Position numbers and translations under genes: made by a program. Positions 2,022 to 48,853 of a stretch of 64,000 bases of DNA are shown here, one piece after another. Each line of letters begins with the position of its first letter. The first letter of the stretch is position 1. Source of the stretch: Petasospora fabianii (lineage: Eukaryota > Ascomycota > Saccharomycetes > Phaffomycetales > Wickerhamomycetaceae); NCBI GenBank assembly GCA_022641835.1, contig CP048715.1, positions 124,001 to 188,000 on the forward strand. Reading direction: 5' to 3'. The notes below the pieces were generated by a model. It saw only the letters and a list, made by a program, of their open reading frames with translations, had not been told where the DNA came from and did not search any database.

Positions 2022-4677
2022 ATGTCCACAGATGAGGCAATTTTCCGTGAGTTTGTCAACTCCCAACTGGGGCGCCATTGCTGGGCAGAATCCTGTGGTT
2101 ACGCGGCTGTGGCACCCCTAACTGCTATCCTGTTGCCAATGGCCCAGCCAGACGAGCCATGGTAGCATATATGGTCCCTTTCCTATCATTGATTGCAACT
2201 ACTAACATTTATGTGCTTTAGGCTCTGCGGACATGTCGCTTGTACAACTGTACATCCCCTCCGAACTGGCGAGAGATGTCACACAGGCACTCGGTGATCT
2301 GGGAAACATCCAGTTCCTTGATCTGAACAAGGAAGTCAGTGCATTTCAGAGAACTTTCGTCAAGGAACTCAGAAGGCTCGATAATACCGAGCGTCAGCTC
2401 CGCTATCTCAATGGCGTCATCGAAAAGCAACACAACTTAATCATTGCACACAACCCGCTCCTGGTTCTTTCGCCGAATACTGTCTCGAACATTGAACAGT
2501 TGACTTCCGAGGTCAATGCTATGGAGGGAAGAGTGTCTCAGTTGGAGACATCATTTGAAGATCTGAATAAGAGACACTCAGGACTCATCGAACACAGATC
2601 TGTTCTCAACGTTTCCAGGTCATTTTTCGATAACAACATTGAGCACCAAGCTAGAATCAGTATAGATCAAGTCGATGATGCTCCTCTTCTCTTGGAGCAA
2701 GAGAGTCTCGAGGCAGGTATCCAGTTGTCCAATTTACAAGAACTTGCACTTAACTATGTTGTTGGTTCCATTCCAAGAGCAAAAGTGGATGTCCTGAATA
2801 AGATTCTCTGGAGAGCATTGAGGGGTAATTTATTCATGAACCATGCACCAATTGACGAACCAGTATTGGACCCACGCTCTGGTGAATTGGTTGACAAGGA
2901 CGCTTTTATTGTGTTCACACACGGTGAGCTGTTGCTGAACAGAGTTAGAAAGATTATAGACTCCCTTGATGGGCACGTTTACAGAGATATTCATTCCGAT
3001 GCTGACTTCTACCATCAGACCCTTCAGCAGCTCAACACACAAATTGGAGACTTGAATCAGGTCTTGGAGAGTACACACCAACAACTACATACTGAACTGT
3101 TTGTCATTGCTGATCAATTGGAGACATGGCAGGCCATTATCAGAAGAGAAAAGATGATATACACAGCATTGAACATGTTCAAGGATGGAAGTCGTGGTTT
3201 GGTATGCGAAGGCTGGGTTCCAACATCCGAAATTGATACAGTTAGAAACGTCTTGAGGGATGTGGAGGGATCCGGTCAGGCTGTGCTCACGCTCTTGGCC
3301 ACCAACAAGTCACCTCCAACATTCCACCGTACAAACAAATTCACACAAGCCTTCCAGTCCATCGTTGATGCTTATGGTATTGCAACTTACCAAGAGGTTA
3401 ACCCAGGTCTCGCCACTGTTGTCACTTTCCCATTCATGTTTGCCATCATGTTCGGTGATCTCGGTCACGGATTTATTGTTTTCCTTGTCGCCCTCACGTT
3501 GGTCCTCAATGAAAAGAGCCTCTTACATCAGAAGAAGGATGAGATCTTTGACATGGCCTTTAATGGCCGTTACATTATCCTGCTCATGGGTATTTTTTCC
3601 ATGTACACAGGATTACTCTATAACGATATATTCTCCAAGAGTATGACCTTGTTCAAATCCGGCTGGGAATGGCCAGAGAGCTTCAAAGAGGGCGAGACAG
3701 TTCTTGCAACGAAGGTGGGTAACTACCCAATAGGGTTGGATTGGGCTTGGCACGGAACTGAGAATAACTTGATCTTCACCAACTCCTACAAGATGAAATT
3801 ATCCATCTTGATGGGTTTCGTGCACATGTCTTACTCCTTCATGCTCTCACTTGTTAACTACAGACACAGACAATCCAGAGTTGATATCATTGGTAACTTT
3901 ATTCCAGGTCTCGTATTCATGCAATCCATTTTTGGTTACCTCTCATTTACAATCGTGTACAAATGGTGTGTTGACTGGATTGCTTTGGACAAACCTGCTC
4001 CAGGTTTGCTCAACATGCTGATCAACATGTTCTTGGCCCCAGGATCAGTCGAAGACGAGCTCTTTCCATTTCAGGCACCGCTGCAGGTAGTGCTCCTGCT
4101 CCTTGCTGCTGTGTGTGTCCCGACACTCCTGCTTTACAAACCAATGACCCTCCGTCGTCAGAATGGTAATGCCAAGGAGGCTGGGTATGCCAACTTGCAC
4201 GACATGTCACACAGCTCAACTGTCCTGGAGAGCGAGGAGAATGCTGGCGATGATTTCCTTGTCTCTCATTTCGAAGAGCCGGAAGAGTTCAACTTTGGTG
4301 ATGTGATGATTCATCAAGTTATCCATACCATTGAGTTCTGCCTAAACTGTGTCTCCCATACAGCTTCGTACTTGAGATTGTGGGCCCTTTCATTGGCTCA
4401 CGCGCAGTTATCCTCTGTGCTGTGGGACATGACTATCAGCAACGCCTTCTCTTCCTCCAACCCCGGATCTCCAGCACAAGTTATCAAGACTGTTATTCTC
4501 TTTGCCATGTGGTTCTGTTTGACAGTAGCTATCTTGGTTATGATGGAAGGTACCTCTGCCATGTTGCACTCGTTGCGTTTGCACTGGGTCGAGGCCATGT
4601 CCAAGTTCTTTGAGGGTGAGGGTTATGCCTATGAGCCATTCACCTTCAAGCACATCAACGAAGCTCCTGCTGAATGA
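2022..4677 (+). CDS. VPH1: V-type H+-ATPase V0 subunit a (two exons)
   Basis: Subunit a of the vacuolar proton pump carries protons through the V0 sector together with the c-ring. Exon 1 is 2022..2046 and exon 2 is 2222..4677, separated by a 175-nt intron with GTGAGT donor, TACTAAC branch point (2200..2206) and TTTAG acceptor. Splicing gives an 826-aa protein starting MSTDEAIFRSADMSLVQ, which matches the family N-terminus (yeast Vph1 has EEAIFRSAEMALVQ). Starting at the ATG at 2233 would lose these conserved 12 residues. The N-terminal half is cytosolic and partly coiled coil. The C-terminal half has about eight membrane segments. The essential arginine lies in YLRLWALSLAHAQLS (about R727) and a second conserved Arg is near R794. 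Only one such gene is visible, so whether it plays the Vph1 (vacuole) or Stv1 (Golgi) role cannot be told. Confidence 0.96.
2047..2221 (+). other. Intron of VPH1 (175 nt)
   Basis: Donor GTGAGT, perfect branch point TACTAAC at 2200..2206, acceptor TTTAG. It joins a codon split C|GC (Arg10 region) in frame and restores conserved residues. Confidence 0.93.
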
Positions 4678-13601: not shown

Positions 13602-16600
13602 ATGCTCGATCATACTGGTGACGAGATCTATATGGTGCTTTCGAGCGTCTCGTACGGTGAGTTACTCGTTTCCCGCCAGCGATATTGATGTCTCGAGCGC
13701 CGATATCGCTTTTCCCTGCCACACCAACTAGATAACTAACAACATGTCAGATAACGAGCAGAAATGTGCTATAATATCAGAATTGAAAGCTCACATTAAG
13801 AGAGACTTTGTCGACTTGTCACATGTCCCGCGCTACTTCGAAGCCTTGAAAGTTGCCAACAAGTCACAGGATTACAAACTCGCCTCTTTGGCTTTCAGCT
13901 CCACTTGTCATCTCGTCAAGAGAGTAGGGATGCAAGACCCCAACGCGCTCAGAGGTCCATCCAAGGTGGTGCTTCCCATCCTTTTCACACGGCTGATGGA
14001 CTCAAAGCTAATGTTTCAACAGCAGGCAAAGTCAACACTAGAGACCTTTTGGCTTGCTACTCCCACAATCGTGGAGGCTTACATTCGAGACTCTGCATTG
14101 ATCCATTCGAACCCAAAGATTAGAGCGGAGTCCATTGTCTTCCTCTCAGACCTCATTGAGCTGAACCGGAACTTCAACTTCTCATCGCTGCTTCCAAATT
14201 TGGTGAATCTTCTCGGAGATGACTCGGTTGATGTGGTCAAGAACACTGAGGTATTAATCCTTAAATATTACACTCTACACAAGAGCAAGTGTGGCGACCT
14301 TGTCAACGAGTTCAAGGGGCAGCATGTTGACTCCAAGAGAGCACTCAGACTCTTAAAGGAGATCGATGTACCGACGGCAAATGCTTACTCCACTGAGATT
14401 AAGGCCTCCAATTCAACATCCAAACCTACAATCGACACTTTCAACAACCTGCTACAAACTACGAGAAGAGCCCCACCAGCATCAAGGAACACTCAACTAG
14501 TATCTGCTCCTGTCAAGTCAACTACACAACCAGATGCTGTGAAAGATCTTTCAGACATCTTGGGTGAAATTCAAACGGCAAAGCTTGACGAGTCGTTGAA
14601 ACCAATCACGGTGAACTCTGCCAGTGAACTCAACCGTGAAATCGAGGGCTTGATTGCACCCTTTGCTGGTAAGGAAACAGAATTTAACTGGGGCAACAGA
14701 GAGAAGAGTATTGTAAGATTCAGAGGTCTTGTTGTTGGCAATGCTGAACAGTACCCTCATGAACTCGTCACCGCTACGCGTGCTATGCATGAGGGAATTA
14801 ACAAAGCCATTCTGTCTTTACGAACGACATTGTCATCTAACGGTTGCCAGCTTGTGAAAGAGCTTGCCATTTACTTGTCCAAATATCTAGATCCAATCAC
14901 CGAGAATTTGTTCACGCCCTTGGCTACATTGACATCAGCCACCAAGAAGATTGCGTCTTTGAACGCCTATGGCTCCCTCTGTGTCCTTTTGGTAAACACC
15001 AGCTTCAACAACCGCTTGTTCAATCACTGCTTTTCCCTTTATCAAGATAAGAACGTTCAACCAAGACTATACTCTTCCACTTTCCTTCATATCTTTATCC
15101 TCAAGCACAGCTCTAAGCTCGACCAAATTAACTTCGAAACCATCAACAAATGGATTGGCAAGGGTGTATCAGATCCTAGCACTACAGTGAGAGAGGCGAT
15201 GAGAACCACATTCTGGGCTCTACACAGAAAGTTCCCAGAAGTCTCTGAAGCGGTCTATGCCAAACAGGACACGAGTGTGAAGAAGGCACTTGAGAGGTGC
15301 AAACCACGTGGTGTTGAAGGTCCAAGCTCTAGAGCTCAAACCACCAGCAAGCCAGGATTGCCACAATTCGAGAGAAAGAGGCCATCAGTACGAGAATTTA
15401 TTCAGTCCAAGCGCGACAGGTCCACATCGGGCCCACAGCTGAACTCTGCTGCTGCCTCACCGCAGGTACATGAGGAGACAGCTGAGGAACCAACTGCAAG
15501 CGTTGAATTAGGAAGACCCGCCAGGATTGGTGTTCCGCAGCGTGTTCGTGTTTCAAGTGCTGGAGCTGCAACTTCGTCCAGTGCTCCACTTCAGAGAGTC
15601 CCATCTAAGGGATCGAAGCAAGACTCGGAGAGGCAACAGAGATGGTCGACCCTTGGCGCTGCTTCAAGAGATAACACAATTGAAGTCCAAAAGACGCCTC
15701 CTGTACCACAGCAGGCTAGGGAGGATAACGAGGTGGTGAGTACGATTGAGAAGATGAAAAAATGCCTTTCATCACCGCTGACAAGAGAGAGGGTCCAGGG
15801 AATCGAGATGCTAAAGGATTTGATATCCAGAAAAGTGGCACTTCCAGACATGTCCCAGATTTTGAGCAAACTTGTGATTTTAGATGCCATGCTATTGAAA
15901 CCTTTCTTATCTTCCCCTGAGTTCTGCCACTTAATGGATGTCACTTTGGCCATCAAGGTTCTTGCTGTTAACAAGGTGGGTGCCGATATACTCCTTGGTA
16001 ATATTGGTAACGAGCAGGTTGCTAGAGGATTGGTGACTCTTATTCAATCATTGGATACTCTTCAGTTTGAGAATGCCCCATCCACAATGTTCCATGTCAA
16101 GCATAAGAGTCTTTTCTTAGACTACTCTGTTCAGAACCTCTACAGGATTACGTCTGATGAAACATCCCAATTTGAGCCATCTTTGTTGAGTGATATTACC
16201 ACTGCTGTCTTCCCATTGTGCATCAGTGATTACCCAAGATACGACGAATTGATTGTCCAGCTCCACAGTTTGAATTCCGAGATATTCGATAGTGTGTTGA
16301 ACTCCAGCAGTGGTTATGTACAGGCCAAAATTGCTTCCATCTTGGAAGAATTCAAAGACGACATTGAGGAGAAGCATGTGGATGCTACTATCCCACTTGA
16401 ACTCACTATGATCAACCCATTCAATGTCAAAGGTTCATCCACTGCTACCGAGATCATATCTCAAAGAACGGATGATATGATGGATGTTGACCATCCAGAG
16501 GAAAAGCCAAACACAGACTTCATGAGTGATATTTTTGCTGCCAAGGACTCAAGAGAACCAACCAGGGACTTTACATTTGTTGGTCCCACGAATGTTGCAC

Positions 16601-21230: not shown

Positions 21231-21600
21231 TCATTTCTTGTTCTTTTTAATGTCTTCGTCTGACTCGAGATACTCCCAAAGGTAAATCAGACCGTAGTAG
21301 GTGGTGAATGTAACTGCCAGCACCTTGACGAGGGGCCCACCAAAGTCTTGGTAGAAAGCCCTCTGTTTTTAATTGTTAGTACCAGCCCCGACAGTAGGTT
21401 CTTTGCAGTTAACTCACATGTGGATTTACTTTCTCCTCTTCGTGTTGGTTTTTGTTTGACTGGTCCCGTGGCTGTATAGGTTGTGGATGTTGACCTTGCG
21501 AACTCGGCACCTTATTGGCGTTTAAGGCGGGTGTCAGTGTTCTGAAGCCCTTTGTGAGTGGCCCTCTGATCGTCTGCCTCAGCATAACGGATCTGAACAT
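21231..21600 (-). CDS. Small probable mitochondrial membrane protein (two exons)
   Basis: Exon 1 is 21600..21418 (61 codons) and exon 2 is 21362..21231. A 55-nt intron with donor GTGAGT, branch TACTAAC (21375..21381) and acceptor ACAG lies between them. The spliced protein is 104 aa. The first ~30 residues are basic with no acidic residue (MFRSVMLRQTIRGPLTKGFR), like a mitochondrial presequence. A polar Gln/Asn-rich linker follows. Then comes a FYQDFGGPLVKV segment, one membrane helix (VLAVTFTTYYGLIYLW) and an acidic then lysine-rich tail (ESDEDIKKNKK). The helix and its flanks look like a single-pass inner-membrane protein of a respiratory or ATP-synthase assembly factor. I do not recognise the family with certainty. 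It faces the 3' end of IDP1 and diverges from ISA2. Confidence 0.8.
21363..21417 (-). other. Intron of the small mitochondrial gene (55 nt)
   Basis: Donor GTGAGT, perfect TACTAAC, acceptor ACAG. One of the shortest plausible budding-yeast introns. It joins two complete codons (phase 0). Confidence 0.88.
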
Positions 21601-25023: not shown

Positions 25024-25803
25024 TGTTGTTAGTAGTATTGCGAACGAAAGTGTGTGTGCTGAAGTTGTGTATATCAGATCAAGTTAGCGGAAGAGTCTGA
25101 AAACATGAGATGGAAACTTTCAACAACAACCCGAGGGCTCGGTTCGAGATCACAAGGTTCGGTATGCCCACGCCATTTGGGCCTAAAACGTAAACATTCC
25201 TATTTTTGGCATATGTTGCGTAGATCTGGCCCATCGAGATTTTTCAAGTGTGGTGTCTGGGTGTTCTGATGTTTGTCTTCCGGGGGCATTGTGCACGTGC
25301 AGTTGTACGTACTAAAGACCCTCGGATGTGTTAAAGGTCTCCTTCTTGGTCGGTTGTGGACCATTAGAGATGGTTTGAGAGGGTTTGTTGTTATATTAAG
25401 ATGCCTGTTAGGACAGCACATGGATGAACGAGGTGATTCAAGATCCGTAAACTCGAGTGAACGTGTGTTCCCCCCAGCAAGCACAATCAGTCCAGGACGC
25501 GTTTTTCCCTTTCAGGCTAGGCAGCGAAAAAACAGCCCGGGTGACGCGTAGATCCATAACTCCCTAATACGTCTCTGTCAGTATACCACAACGACAACTG
25601 GGGTCAGATAGCTCTGCTACCACTTGCGAGATCACCTACATACACAGCGACTCTCAATCTTATTTTCAGCTGAATAAGGGCCCTGCTAAACCATTTTCAA
25701 CGCCATAATCAAGAGAAGCACTGACGCGCAGTGTCAAAACCCCCCAACTGTCATCGCTCCATCTCCACGCACACAGAAGCCCAATTCCCCTTGACGAGCA
25801 GCG
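25024..25803. other. Divergent promoter region, CCW14-like copy 2 / MBP1
   Basis: 780 bp with no gene. Two exact ACGCGT boxes lie at 25497..25502 and 25544..25549 on the MBP1 side. Confidence 0.6.
25497..25549. promoter_or_regulatory. Two MCB boxes (ACGCGT) upstream of MBP1
   Basis: Palindromic ACGCGT at 25497..25502 and again at 25544..25549, 255-307 bp before the MBP1 ATG. ACGCGT is the known binding site of MBF, of which Mbp1 is the DNA-binding subunit. Confidence 0.65.
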
Positions 25804-42003: not shown

Positions 42004-42999
42004 ATGGTGGCCTCTGTCTCGCAGGAAGGCGCCAAGTGTGAGATGATCGTCACTCCTTTCGCTGGTCAACTCGAAGGTACGTTCTCTTTGTTGTGGGCTC
42101 AGAAGACCGCTGCTGCCCTAAGCAACAAGGCACTGGAGCCCACATTAACTACACCCCCACCTTCCACTGACTACTAACAGCCCACCGAAGAAATTGACAA
42201 GGCGCTCTTCGAGTATCGCTATAGCAAGCAGACTCAGCAGCACCAGTACGCCAATAATAACAAGTTTGGTGCCCATGTTGGTCAGCGCTCCCAGCAACGT
42301 CACAACAACCAGCTTCACCAGCATCAGCATCAGCATCAGCATCAGCATGGCCAGGGTCAACACCTGAGCCGCCAGTTCATGAATCAGCAGTCCTATCAGC
42401 TGCCTTACGTCCAAAAGCATCAGCATGTTATGATGGCAAGCCCATCTCCATCTCCTGTTACTCATCAGCAACAGCAGTATGGTAATCTGAACCAACAGAT
42501 GATGGTTCATCAGCACATGCATCAACAGGTTGTTCCACAGCAGGTCCATCAGATCTCTATGGCTCAGCCACAGCAGCAGCCGGTTTACGGCATGGGGGCC
42601 CACTCTGTTGTTGCTCAGTCTCCAGATAGTTTCCTTGAAGGTGTCGGCGGCTCCTTGTACTCCACCACCTCCAACAATAACAAGCTTGATGGTTTCTCCT
42701 TGAACCTGTCTTCTTCTATCTCTTCTGGTGCTGGATCTACGTCGTCATACTCATCTGCTGAGTACGAGATGCAAAATAAAATCTCGAACGTTGGTTATCC
42801 AAGTACTATCTTAGAAAGTAGCACGGGTGAGAGTAACAGCAACAACAGTTTCAAGGTTTCCCAGGACGGTACTGCCCGTCCTAACGAGTTTAATGTGGTT
42901 AACGAAGGAAATGTGTTTGAAAACTTCAACACTGTCACTAATAATTCTAATCGTGGTTGGTTGAACATCTGGGGAAGTGACATGTCTGTTTGGGGTTAG
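42004..42999 (+). CDS. Unrecognised Gln/His-rich protein (two exons)
   Basis: Exon 1 is 42004..42076 (24 codons plus one base) and exon 2 is 42191..42999. The 114-nt intron has donor GTACGT and a perfect TACTAAC (42172..42178). The product is 293 aa: a short conserved-looking N-terminus (MVASVSQEGAKCEMIVTPFA), then EIDKALFEYRYSKQ, then long Gln/His-rich low-complexity sequence with (CATCAG)n, a Ser/Asn-rich middle, and the C-terminal motif RGWLNIWGSDMSVWG. The acceptor must be the AAG at 42190. The first AG lies only one base after TACTAAC and would shift the frame. No domain is recognised. Composition suggests a regulatory or RNA/DNA-associated protein, but that is a guess. An upstream start at 41779 cannot be excluded. 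Confidence 0.68.
42077..42190 (+). other. Intron of the Q/H-rich gene (114 nt)
   Basis: Donor GTACGT, branch TACTAAC at 42172..42178, acceptor AAG at 42188..42190. The nearer AACAG at 42180 is too close to the branch point and is out of frame. Confidence 0.72.
42321..42349 (+). repeat. (CATCAG)n His-Gln repeat
   Basis: About five copies of CATCAG coding alternating His and Gln inside the Q/H-rich protein. Confidence 0.9.
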
Positions 43000-43531: not shown

Positions 43532-44206
43532 TCAGTGCAAGAAGTTGAGCTTTGGGAACCTCAAGTCTGTTTTGGAATTTGAAGGGATAACTAGATGAGG
43601 AAGGGCCTCAGTGAACTCGGTCCTTTGTCTTTTTGAGTTAGGTGCATGGGACAAACCTGACTGACAACTGGCCACATCTCTCTCCTCACGTAGGATGGAA
43701 CCTTCCTCATAAGGCACAGGTTGGCGATGAAATATGTTAGAACCTCCCAACTCTAGCAAACGGTTATCGGGAAGTAATAGTGACTTGTTATTGGGGTCAA
43801 AAATGCATCCGACCGACTCATGAATTGTCTGTTTAGCGCGCTTTAGTCGCCTGGTTATGTCTGAGGGGAGAAGCACAGTCTTTGTCACATTTGTTGAGGT
43901 GTTCAACGTATCTGTGTGACAATATGTCTCTTCAACCTTACATGTTGGTCGGTCATCAGTTAAATTGATCTGAAAAGATTGTGGGAGAACTGATTCGGTA
44001 AATGGCATTGAGTAGGTCCTACGGTCACTAGAGTGCGCTAAAGTGTTCCCTCCTTCAGAGCCTTCGAAAGTATAGTCTGAAGGGATAATCTGCTCTTGTA
44101 AAAAGTTTTGGATCCTAATCTCATGAAGACTTTGCTGATTCAACAGCTTTTGTTTGTTTCCCACTTCATTTTGAAGCAAGCGCAAGTTGTACTTCGTGAG
44201 ATTCAT
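43532..44206 (-). CDS. Unrecognised protein with N-terminal coiled coil
   Basis: From the ATG at 44206 the frame encodes 224 aa. It starts MNLTKYNLRLLQNEVGNKQK, a predicted coiled coil of about 40 residues, followed by a Ser/Thr-rich middle and a basic motif (DITRRLKRAKQTIHE). The C-terminal part is polar (RQRTEFTEALPHLV). I know no matching family. The frame is open upstream to 44264 without an ATG. A first exon ATGCT at 44561..44557 followed by GTGAGT, joined to 44264, would extend it to MLVLDWIGSKDQR in frame. However, that 292-nt intron lacks a clear branch point. Its promoter overlaps the 5' leader of NUP170. Confidence 0.55.
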   Translation of the reverse strand: MNLTKYNLRLLQNEVGNKQKLLNQQSLHEIRIQNFLQEQIIPSDYTFEGSEGGNTLAHSSDRRTYSMPFTESVLPQSFQINLTDDRPTCKVEETYCHTDTLNTSTNVTKTVLLPSDITRRLKRAKQTIHESVGCIFDPNNKSLLLPDNRLLELGGSNIFHRQPVPYEEGSILREERDVASCQSGLSHAPNSKRQRTEFTEALPHLVIPSNSKTDLRFPKLNFLH

Positions 44207-44525
44207 TATGGTATTGGAAAAGGTCTTGAGACGTTGATCCTTTGACCCAATCCAATCGAGCACACTCTACGCAGACTGGCAATAGTTACCCGATCATAAT
44301 GTACAGCCTGATTTCAGTCGAACTGATGAACACAAACTGAGTTAATGCACAGAGTCTGTTTATCCCTCGGTTCGAGGTAATGGTGGTGACGATTTCCGAG
44401 GGTGACCCTTCCGAAACCCGGTCAAAAAAAACATGTTCCAAGCCGAGCGTAGGTAAACAAGACATTTGATCTTTCCCGATATTCACGCCAATTGTGACAT
44501 TGTTGAGCCATTCAAAGGTTGCAAG

Positions 44526-47500
44526 AGTATGTTTTGCCCTTAATATCTTCACTCACAGCATTAGAGGTTGTTTCCTGGATGGGCCACTGTCCTGGGTGCA
44601 GCGATCGACCCAAAACTCGACGTGATGCCTTGAGCTGGATCTTGTATTTGAGAGCTTTCAGCCACTAACAAATAATAACAGTGTCCAAATTTTCGACTCC
44701 TTTCAAAGCCAATGGATTCGACCCCGTGGTGAACCAGTCACTGGTACCCGCGGCCTCCAAAGTCACTCCGTTGACTCCAAACAGGAACGATGTTCTAACC
44801 GTCACCAATGTTGACACCAATCAGCCTCTTGAGCTTGCAAGCAAATTCGTTGATGCATCACTCCTTCGTGATAAAATAACACCGGTACTGGAGGACAGTA
44901 TCTTCCATGGAAAGGCTGTCGACTACAACTTCAGTAATGATGTTGACGGCCTTGGTGCCCTGACTCCATTTGTTAAGCAAGAGTTGATCAACATCCCAGA
45001 TGAGATCCTCTCTCAGTACAACAAGGTTCAAACCGTGGGGTCCATGGGTATTTTCCCGGAGATCAACAGAGCGTGGGTGGTGATTGACAATAAGCTGATT
45101 CTTTGGAATCTCACCAGAACATCTGAGTTCCAGAGCTTTGAGGACATTCCACATACAATCTTGAAAGTTGAGCTCGTCAAGCCAAAACCAAACACATTCA
45201 CAGAAGCCATTAACTACCTTCTTCTGATTTCAACACCATCTGACATACACATCCTTGCTCTTTCATTTGCCAATAACAGTTTGGACCTCTACAACACACA
45301 TATGTCAGTTCCAGCACAAGGTCTCTCAGCCGATCACTTTGTCGTTTACGAAAAGACCGGGCAAGTTTTCTTCACTGGTGCCAGTGATGGTCTTAATATC
45401 TGGGAGTTGCAGTACTCCAACTCTGCCGACTGGTTCAATAAGAAATGCAACAAGCGTTGTTTGACGAGAAGCACAGTGTCGAGTTTGATTCCAGGATCAT
45501 CTCTTATTAATTCATTCTTGGGCAATGAACAGCACAATGAAGTTGTCACACAAGTCAAAATTGACAACTCCAGAGGAATTATTTACACGCTCACCAACAA
45601 GTCATACATCAGAGCTTACAAGATCACTGCCAAAGGCTCGATTGATTCCTCACCTGCATTGCTCCAACCATACCATATCTCAAGCTTTGCAAGAACCTCA
45701 TCAGCCAAGTCATCACCACTCCTTCACGGAAAGTATCTCCAAATTGTCAGTATCAGTGTTGTGACGGCCCTCGAAAGTAACGATCTCTATCTTGTTGCCG
45801 TCACTGTTGGAGGTTGTCGTCTTTATCTCAATGGTTCTTGTAACGCCTCCACCGTTTCTGAATTGAGATTAGAGAGTGTCAAGTTCCCACCTACCAAGGT
45901 GACTGAGGAGGAGATTGCTATTGAGCGTACTAAGTACAATGAGCAAGAAGCGACGAGATCCTCAACCCTATATGGTGGTCTCGCTAAGGACCATAAGGAA
46001 CTTCCTACAAAACTTTCATATCAGAAGAAATCTGGTGTCTTGCATAAGTCGTTGTCAGCAAGTACTATGATCTCCCCAGGTATTTTCTTTGATGTTGTTG
46101 AGAAGGAAGGTCAGGCAGACAACAAATTGTTTGTATCTGTGCCTGACTATGGTGTCTTGAAGTACCATGAAAGATCAACTGAGAATGCCACATTCCTGGA
46201 AGTACAAGGGAAGATCCATCAAATTGTGCCATTATCACCTCCTTTCAACGCCACAGATCGTCCAAGAGGTTATGCCAATGAGTTTGCCACTCAATACACA
46301 AAGGGAAGCTTTGAAGTTGCTGTTTTGACCAACTCCAGTCTTGTCGTGTACAGTTACAGAACTCCTGATCAGGTATTTGAGTCTATGACCGATGATCTGA
46401 CTCCGTTTGTCACAAGGTATGGTTTCCTTGAGGCCGCATCTACTGCTCTTTACGTTACTTGCAAGTTCAGTCTTCCAAAGACTATCAGAGCCAATGCCTT
46501 CAATTTCTTCACTGTTGGTATTCCAAACGTTGTGGATTTCAAGCCATCGTACAAGAAGATTGCATCTACTGGTTCGATGGTGACATCTGTGCTCACCATC
46601 GCCAACAACAGCAAGTCCGATGAAACTTTTTCATTCCAGAATGTGACGCTTTCACCAAGATTCTATGGTATTGTGACACTATTGGGTCGTCTGTTCCGTG
46701 ATGTGTGGGAGAAGAATGTCTTCCAGATCAGTAAGGATATCAAATACAACAAGGACAACACCATTGTCAAGACTTCGATTTTTGAGAATGAGTTCTTAGC
46801 TTCTGTCAACATCACCCAATCTGAGCTTGAATTTTTCCTCTCCTCTATCTCCGTGCTCAATGAGTTCTTCCAGACGTATGGTAACACCATTGCCTGCTTC
46901 GTTCCCCCATCGTTCAACAACCGTAACTTTGACAAGAGTGAGGAATTTTGTAACCAGGCTGAGAACATTGCCATCAACTCTGTGATTCGTCTTGTTATTT
47001 CGATGAAGGAGGCACTCTCTTTCCTCGTTGTGTTGATCAAGGAGGACACTGATGATACTGATGCTGCTGGTGATAGACTTAGGGGAGTTTTCAAATATCT
47101 ATCACTTGATGTTCAACAATCTTTGTCTAAGCTCACATTCAAGGATATCTTTGCACCAAACGACAACACCAAGAATTTGATCAAGGAGATTTTGTCTTCG
47201 ATTATTAACAGAAGCATGTCTCGTGGTGAATCTATTGAATACATCGCCAAGGGTCTTCAAGAGCGTTGTGGTACTTTCTGCTCGGCGAATGACGTTGTTG
47301 GATTCCGTGCGATTGAGCATTTGAGAAAGGCCAAGGAGATTGGATTCAAGGATTATGATGGATTAAATTATCATTTGAGTCGTGCGATTGAATTGTTTGA
47401 GGCAATCAACAATGAGATTAGTTTGGAGAAGTTGAAAGAGAGTATTGATATTATGGTTGGATTAAATGATTTCCCACGTGCAATCAAGTTTGCCCTTAAT

Positions 47501-48853
47501 ATCAGTGCCAGTATCGATCAAGGTAATTTAGCTGCTCAGTACAGTGCTGATGGTAAGTTGGCAAATGATGAGCGTAAGAAGTATTATGAGAAGAGAAGGG
47601 ACATTTTTGAGATTGTTTTCCAATTGCTTGTTCAAGTTGATAAGTTGGCATTGGAATCTAGTGTTAATCAGGAGCAAGAACAAGATGCTACGAGATTGTT
47701 TGATTCATCATTGAGTCCAGTTACTGACTTTGCCCAATTGCGTAACTTGAGTTATGATACTGCATTCAAGTTTGAAGATAAGTTGTTCCATTACGAGTTG
47801 TATGATTGGTTTATTTCTCAAGAGGTTAGTGAGAGATTATTGGAGATTGACACACCATATGTTCTTGGATATTTGGAGGAGAAGGCTGCTGGATCATTAG
47901 AGATTTCTGATATGTTGTGGATTTACCAATCTAAGAAGGAGAATCATTACCAAGCTGCATTGATTTCATACAATTTGGCATTGAGTGACTTTGCCATTAC
48001 ATTATCACAGAGAAATGAGTATTTGTCCAGAGCTATTGGTTTCTGCAATTGTACTAGATATCCAACAGAACGTCAACAAGTGATTCAGTTATCTACGATG
48101 ATTGAAGAAGTGTTTGAGGCTTCTAATATTCAGTATGATTTACTCATTGCCATCTCTAATGATAAAATCTTGAGTGATGGACAAAAAATTGAATTGATTG
48201 ATCAATTGGATGGTAAGATATTAACAGTTTCTGAATTGTTCAACGATTTTGCTAATGTGTTATCTTACCATGAGATTTGTTTGCATATCTTTAAGGCATC
48301 TGATTTCCGCAATTCTGAAGAGATTTTATCAAGATGGGATCAATTGTTTGAGAATGTCAAACAAACTATTTACACTGATTCTGGATTGCAATTAACAAAT
48401 TCTGAAGATGATGTTATATTGAATGGTACTACCGCTGAAAAATATGTTTCATTGTTAAGTGCCACTATCATCAAAATTGGTAAGAAACTTTCTTCTTCAG
48501 AATTTGTGTTCCCAGTTTCTGATTTGTTACCAATTGTTACCGGTTTGATTTATGATTTGGATGATGCTGATTCATTTGTATCTAAAGGTGCTATTGCATC
48601 TATCTTCTTAGAGTGTGGTATCACATTTGACAAGTTGTACTATTTACTCAAGGGTATCGTGGACACTAATGGTAATGATGCTAATGTTCAACATTACAAG
48701 GATGAGCTTGTGTTTGTGATTAAGAAATGGTATGATGAAGATAGAAGATTAAGGGAGATTATTGATAATGATGCTGTTAGAAACTTGACAGTGTACACAA
48801 GCCAGGGTGATCCGATTGCTAACTACATGAGTCGTACGGGTAATTCTGTGTGA
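44526..48853 (+). CDS. NUP170: Nuclear pore inner-ring nucleoporin Nup170/Nup157 (two exons)
   Basis: This inner-ring scaffold nucleoporin (Nup155 family) links the pore membrane, other ring members and chromatin. The coding frame in exon 2 starts at 44682 with TG TCC AAA, and no ATG precedes it. A 155-nt intron (44527..44681; donor GTATGT, branch CACTAAC at 44663..44669, acceptor ACAG) joins the A at 44526 to TG and so makes the ATG. The protein is 1390 aa, starting MSKFSTPFKANGFD. An N-terminal beta-propeller (about 60-480) carries NFSNDVDGLGALTPF and GIFPEINRAWVVIDNKLILWN. The C-terminal alpha-solenoid carries QERCGTFCSANDVVGFRAIEHLRKAKEIG. All are close to yeast Nup170. Codon use turns AT-rich in the 3' half. 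Confidence 0.93.
44527..44681 (+). other. Intron splitting the NUP170 start codon (155 nt)
   Basis: Donor GTATGT, branch CACTAAC, acceptor AACAG. Joining A (44526) to TG (44682) makes ATG. The exon-1 frame upstream holds no in-frame ATG after a TAA. Confidence 0.82.

Follow-up and report, generated by a model that had tools for sequence, protein, structure and literature searches.

The NUP170 locus and its predicted intron

Positions 44526–48853 of the forward strand of the window, by which we mean the whole 64,000-nucleotide stretch of DNA analysed, carry a predicted gene for a Nup170/Nup157 homologue. Its 1390-residue product, with the N-terminus MSKFSTPF, matches NUP170 of S. cerevisiae (7n85) with a phmmer E-value of 0 and NUP157 with 2.2e-273. 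Two Pfam domains are found above the cut-off, PF08801 (Nucleoporin_N, 3e-101) and PF03177 (Nucleoporin_C, 5.1e-187), and together they place the protein in the Nup170/Nup157 (Nup155) family; a search of bacterial/archaeal and viral contig collections gave no confirmed relative. Five of the eight CTG codons lie at leucines of S. cerevisiae Nup170 and the others at A, F and P; none is aligned to serine, which speaks against the CUG-Ser clade. The features of the locus are:

43535–44206, minus strand: divergent ORF, first ATG at 44206, 320 nt from the split ATG
44526, plus strand: predicted first coding exon of a single base, supplying the A of a split start codon after a 5' leader (from the sequence and the joined frame)
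44527–44681, plus strand: predicted spliceosomal intron, 155 nt, phase 1 (GTATGT donor, CACTAAC, ACAG)
44527–44532, plus strand: predicted 5' splice site GTATGT, which includes an out-of-frame ATG at 44529
44663–44669, plus strand: predicted branch site CACTAAC, containing the TAA (44666–44668) that is the upstream limit of the contiguous frame
44678–44681, plus strand: predicted 3' splice site ACAG, the first AG past the branch site
44682–48853, plus strand: exon 2, the remaining NUP170 coding sequence including the stop codon (phmmer, Pfam)

The only Pfam match of the divergent ORF is below the cut-off (E 0.017). The NUP170 promoter presumably lies between this ORF and the split ATG, an interval in which no TATAWA is present on the plus strand. 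There is an A8 tract at 44424, and TTACCCG at 44286–44292 (plus strand) is, we assume, a Reb1-type site of the divergent promoter.

Inspection of the sequence confirmed the A at 44526, the GTATGT that follows it, CACTAAC from 44663, ACAG ending at 44681 and TG TCC AAA from 44682, all at the positions that an earlier note on this DNA had given. That note had also proposed that joining A to TG creates an in-frame ATG, and the joined frame, which starts MSKFSTPFKANGF, indeed runs for 1390 codons to a single terminal stop at 48851–48853. Its statement that exon 2 has no ATG is accurate only as far as codon 122 (45044), which is the first in-frame ATG of the contiguous ORF and lies within a conserved region. 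Alignment to the N-terminal regions of Nup170 and Nup157 of S. cerevisiae shows 27 columns ahead of codon 122 that are identical in all three sequences, and since a start at that codon would lose these residues, an upstream start is needed. The contiguous frame is open from 44669, after the TAA, and reads CAA ATA ATA ACA GTG TCC; the absence of any other in-frame ATG back to the TAA, as had been claimed, is true of this contiguous frame, but the claim overlooked alternatives produced by splicing.

The predicted intron has the GT-AG ends and yeast donor consensus of Saccharomycotina U2-type introns. On the evidence of the sequence, the best-supported gene model is one in which the NUP170 start codon is split A/TG, and we consider it probable that a 155-nt intron separates its first and second bases. 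We infer the use of the donor at 44527 by the cell, as well as the transcript start site.

Comparator introns and chance expectation

Four other likely introns were identified within the window and used as comparators:

2047–2221, plus strand: predicted intron of a V-ATPase a-subunit gene (VPH1/STV1 homologue), 175 nt, GTGAGT/TACTAAC; splicing completes the gene
21417–21363, minus strand: predicted intron, 55 nt, GTGAGT/TACTAAC/ACAG, joining two short ORFs
42077–42190, plus strand: predicted intron of a Gln/His-rich gene, GTACGT
63631–63148, minus strand: predicted 484-nt intron of an RPS30 homologue, directly after the ATG, with the junctions ATG/GTACGT...TACTAAC...ACAG/GGT

The V-ATPase gene (2022–2221, plus strand) gives the spliced product MSTDEAIFRSADM. 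Its intron follows the first base of the ninth codon, so that exon 1 encodes MSTDEAIF and the split codon is R; the Met of SADM (residue 13) aligns to S. cerevisiae Vph1 (3j9t) at its residue 14, and the highest-scoring match is the Golgi isoform (6o7u). Exon 2 of the RPS30 homologue matches Pfam Ribosomal_S30 (4.2e-28). The joined product at 21417–21363 is about 104 residues long, with a membrane segment recognizable by eye. At 42077–42190 an AG located 3 nt past the branch A must be skipped, and the next AG (GAAG) preserves the frame; Pfam gave no match for this gene on either side of the intron.

In the NUP170 intron the ACTAAC motif lies at a distance from the AG similar to that of these neighbours, with 13 nt from branch A to AG compared with 13–16 nt (16, 14, 13 and 13) in the comparators, spacings that depend partly on analyst choices: three of the introns came from a scan allowing up to 45 nt from branch to AG, the 21.4-kb intron from one limited to 10–18 nt, and acceptor 42190 was picked to keep the frame. 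The four comparators all have TACTAAC, versus CACTAAC in NUP170, and their donors are two GTGAGT and two GTACGT; none has GTATGT, and both differences count against the NUP170 model. Per sequenced hemiascomycete, the ACTAAC branch motif is reported in 66–100% of introns, according to the part of PMC2483917 available.

Several other sites were dropped as comparators. Four minus-strand candidates (34548, 25643, 25639 and 25312) had no convincing joined gene, and the signals at 13657–13750 (plus strand; GTGAGT, AACTAAC) have the ATG of their own ORF, at 13744, inside them. These last signals precede and span the ATG of a 1354-aa ORF, and splicing there would alter its start.

The bare set of motifs—GTATGT, ACTAAC within 600 nt and an AG 9–20 nt further—is not rare: a single occurrence was seen when both strands of the window were scanned, while 100 shuffled sequences contained 0.73 per strand on average. 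Once the donor must follow an A and the acceptor must precede TG, this average drops to 0.01 per strand (100 shuffles). Changing the limits to 700 nt and an AG at 10–18 nt adds one GTATGT set, at 25643 on the minus strand.

Alternative N-termini

Considering ATGs from 44209 onwards, thirteen GT sites in 44209–44649 would bring such a codon into frame with the coding sequence beyond the acceptor at 44681, and just two of these match GTRNGN: the GTATGT at 44527 and a GTAGGT at 44449. The second of these defines the principal rival, with these features:

44433–44448, plus strand: candidate exon 1, ATG TTC CAA GCC GAG C, encoding MFQAE
44449–44681, plus strand: candidate intron, 233 nt, GTAGGT donor located 78 nt (26 codons) upstream of the GTATGT, with the same acceptor as the A/TG model

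Here the start codon is an intact ATG at 44433, and the branch site as well as the acceptor is shared; the intron is in phase 1 and the product is MFQAELSKFSTPF, joined as MFQAE/LSKFSTPF. The split-start reading had been put forward in the earlier note without this rival. Both arrangements fit the sequence, the single-base A exon with the TG of exon 2 in the conserved frame and the exon at 44433–44448, whose frame is open and joined in frame.

Chance rates for the donors were obtained from 5000 dinucleotide shuffles of 44209–44640. An A followed by GTATGT occurs anywhere in 1.8% of these, a rate that counts for the split start. GTATGT paired with an in-frame ATG of any kind is found in 3.3%, and any GTANGT or GTGAGT with an in-frame ATG in 17.9%; GTAGGT with an in-frame ATG arises in 2.0%, a rate that counts against the upstream donor.

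Published donor data lean towards GTATGT. PMC2911113 gives it as the commonest donor motif among sequenced hemiascomycetes, and the four donors used most often in Yarrowia lipolytica are GTGAGT, GTAAGT, GTATGT (2.2%) and GTGGGT, with GTAGGT not among them (PMC13309789, available part). GTAGGT has a G at +4, a position at which shifts of preference within Saccharomycotina nearly always exchange A and U (PMC10581693, in the available part of which the share of G is not given); a +4 base other than A or T is nevertheless not foreign to the window, since C occupies this position in two of the comparators (GTACGT). How much GTATGT counts for in this species is itself uncertain, because none of the four comparators uses it and GTAAGT is named as the ancestral hemiascomycete donor in PMC4022394. 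The portion of PMC8496845 available has no donor frequencies.

The surroundings of the two candidate starts do not decide between them. The ATG at 44433 is preceded by the A8 tract and has an A at −3. A start-context score was built on 21 ORFs of the window, with the first ATG taken as the start and one of the 21 being the spliced VPH1 start; the scores of the two candidate NUP170 starts, −0.48 and −1.16, do not separate them. The median gene start scores higher than either, and of the 1270 ATGs in the window, 32% and 44% score as high.

Each model also finds a faint N-terminal echo in S. cerevisiae. The product from 44433 begins with MFQ, as does Nup170 (MFQSFFHNNG), but this likeness comprises three residues, was noticed post hoc and has no alignable neighbours. 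For the A/TG model, the Met of Nup157 adjoins a motif similar to that found here (MYSTPLKKR and MSKFSTPFK, respectively). On balance, we regard a start at 44433 as unlikely, though it is the main competitor to the split start. If the A/TG model holds and the leader extends that far, the ATG at 44433 would open a 7-codon uORF, MFQAERR, ending at 44456.

Both donors might also be used, with transcripts from upstream of 44433, spliced from 44449, giving MFQAELSKF and shorter ones, spliced from 44527, giving MSKF. The donors are a multiple of three nucleotides apart and both are in frame, and at least two such candidates are present in 1.8% of the shuffles; one real donor together with one chance donor would look identical, however, and we think this dual usage very improbable. 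A gene with no intron at all is very improbable. Translation would then begin at a non-AUG codon (GTG at 44681, or ATA at 44672 or 44675) or at codon 122, and the openness of the contiguous frame from 44669 would permit it; GTG and ATA are weak start codons in yeast, codon 122 is disfavoured by the invariant residues before it, and a complete set of intron signals would be left unexplained. Least probable of all is the use of some other donor, or a sequencing or assembly error masking the true start: the GTAGGT at 44012 joins in frame and likewise yields A/TG, but it requires a 670-nt intron and a leader within the coding sequence of the divergent minus-strand ORF, while nothing else disrupts the NUP170 frame, for which the nearer signals are enough.

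Expected consequences of the proposed split start codon and relation to known systems

In the A/TG model, removal of 44527–44681 would join A to UG and so produce AUG UCC, the start of the 1390-aa Nup170. In an RNA that kept the intron, the AUG at 44529, inside the GUAUGU donor, would read MFCP and stop, the AUGs at 44625 and 44712 would lie in other frames, and the one at 44579, although in frame, would run into the TAA within CACTAAC. Such an unspliced transcript would lack a workable start close to the conserved frame and should therefore yield no full-length Nup170; we infer that it would be non-productive, and possibly degraded. A split start would thus make translation of Nup170 depend on splicing, as the earlier note had anticipated.

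Dependence of this kind is not by itself evidence of special control, and it is common for an intron placed early in a coding sequence to render translation dependent on splicing. Beyond it, we found no sign of special regulation of NUP170. The predicted fold of the intron RNA is unremarkable (z 0.27) and Rfam gave no match at E-values up to 1 over 43900–45100, so a structured element is not supported. We give very little credence to the idea that Nup170 is tuned through splicing at its start codon, with the donors 78 nt apart as alternatives that yield two in-frame N-termini, the AUG of the retained intron diverting ribosomes and the whole sensing splicing capacity.

For annotation, the gene model has a direct consequence, as a procedure considering only ORFs would start Nup170 at codon 122 or call the protein truncated. 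NUP170 would add one example of the crowding of introns at yeast start codons, and would carry greater weight only if intron retention or alternative donors proved to alter Nup170 levels. Our literature search found no report of a NUP170 intron, which is weak evidence since most papers in subscription journals lie outside that search; the available part of PMC8476143 mentions neither 'start codon' nor NUP.

Introns within start codons have been described in other yeasts. Forty-seven genes of Y. lipolytica have a one-base first coding exon (PMC2911113), although a 2026 RNA-seq study of the same species gives a smaller number, 42, even when introns following the A, the T and the G of the start codon are pooled (PMC13309789). 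As in these cases, the predicted NUP170 intron follows the A of the ATG, is in phase 1 and lies near the 5' end of the coding sequence. The signals differ: Y. lipolytica mostly has GTGAGT and separates the branch motif from the acceptor by about 1 nt, whereas NUP170 has GTATGT and 10 nt from CACTAAC to AG. The Y. lipolytica study also used cDNA data (PMC2911113), whereas the NUP170 case is a prediction from DNA sequence.

Start codons and 5' splice sites are linked in another way in S. cerevisiae, in which ten protointrons have an AUG inside a GUAUG donor (PMC6726248). Splicing of those protointrons removes a start codon, while splicing of NUP170 would create one.

In K. lactis, E. gossypii and E. 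cymbalariae, RPS22B has an intron that is 'present after the initial A' (PMC4202332) and is described, in the part of that paper available, as a 5'-UTR intron that moved into the ORF. RPS22B shares with NUP170 the position of the intron after the A; it differs in being a ribosomal protein gene and in having a history traced across species. With the Y. lipolytica genes and RPS22B as precedents, the arrangement predicted for NUP170 would belong to a known class.
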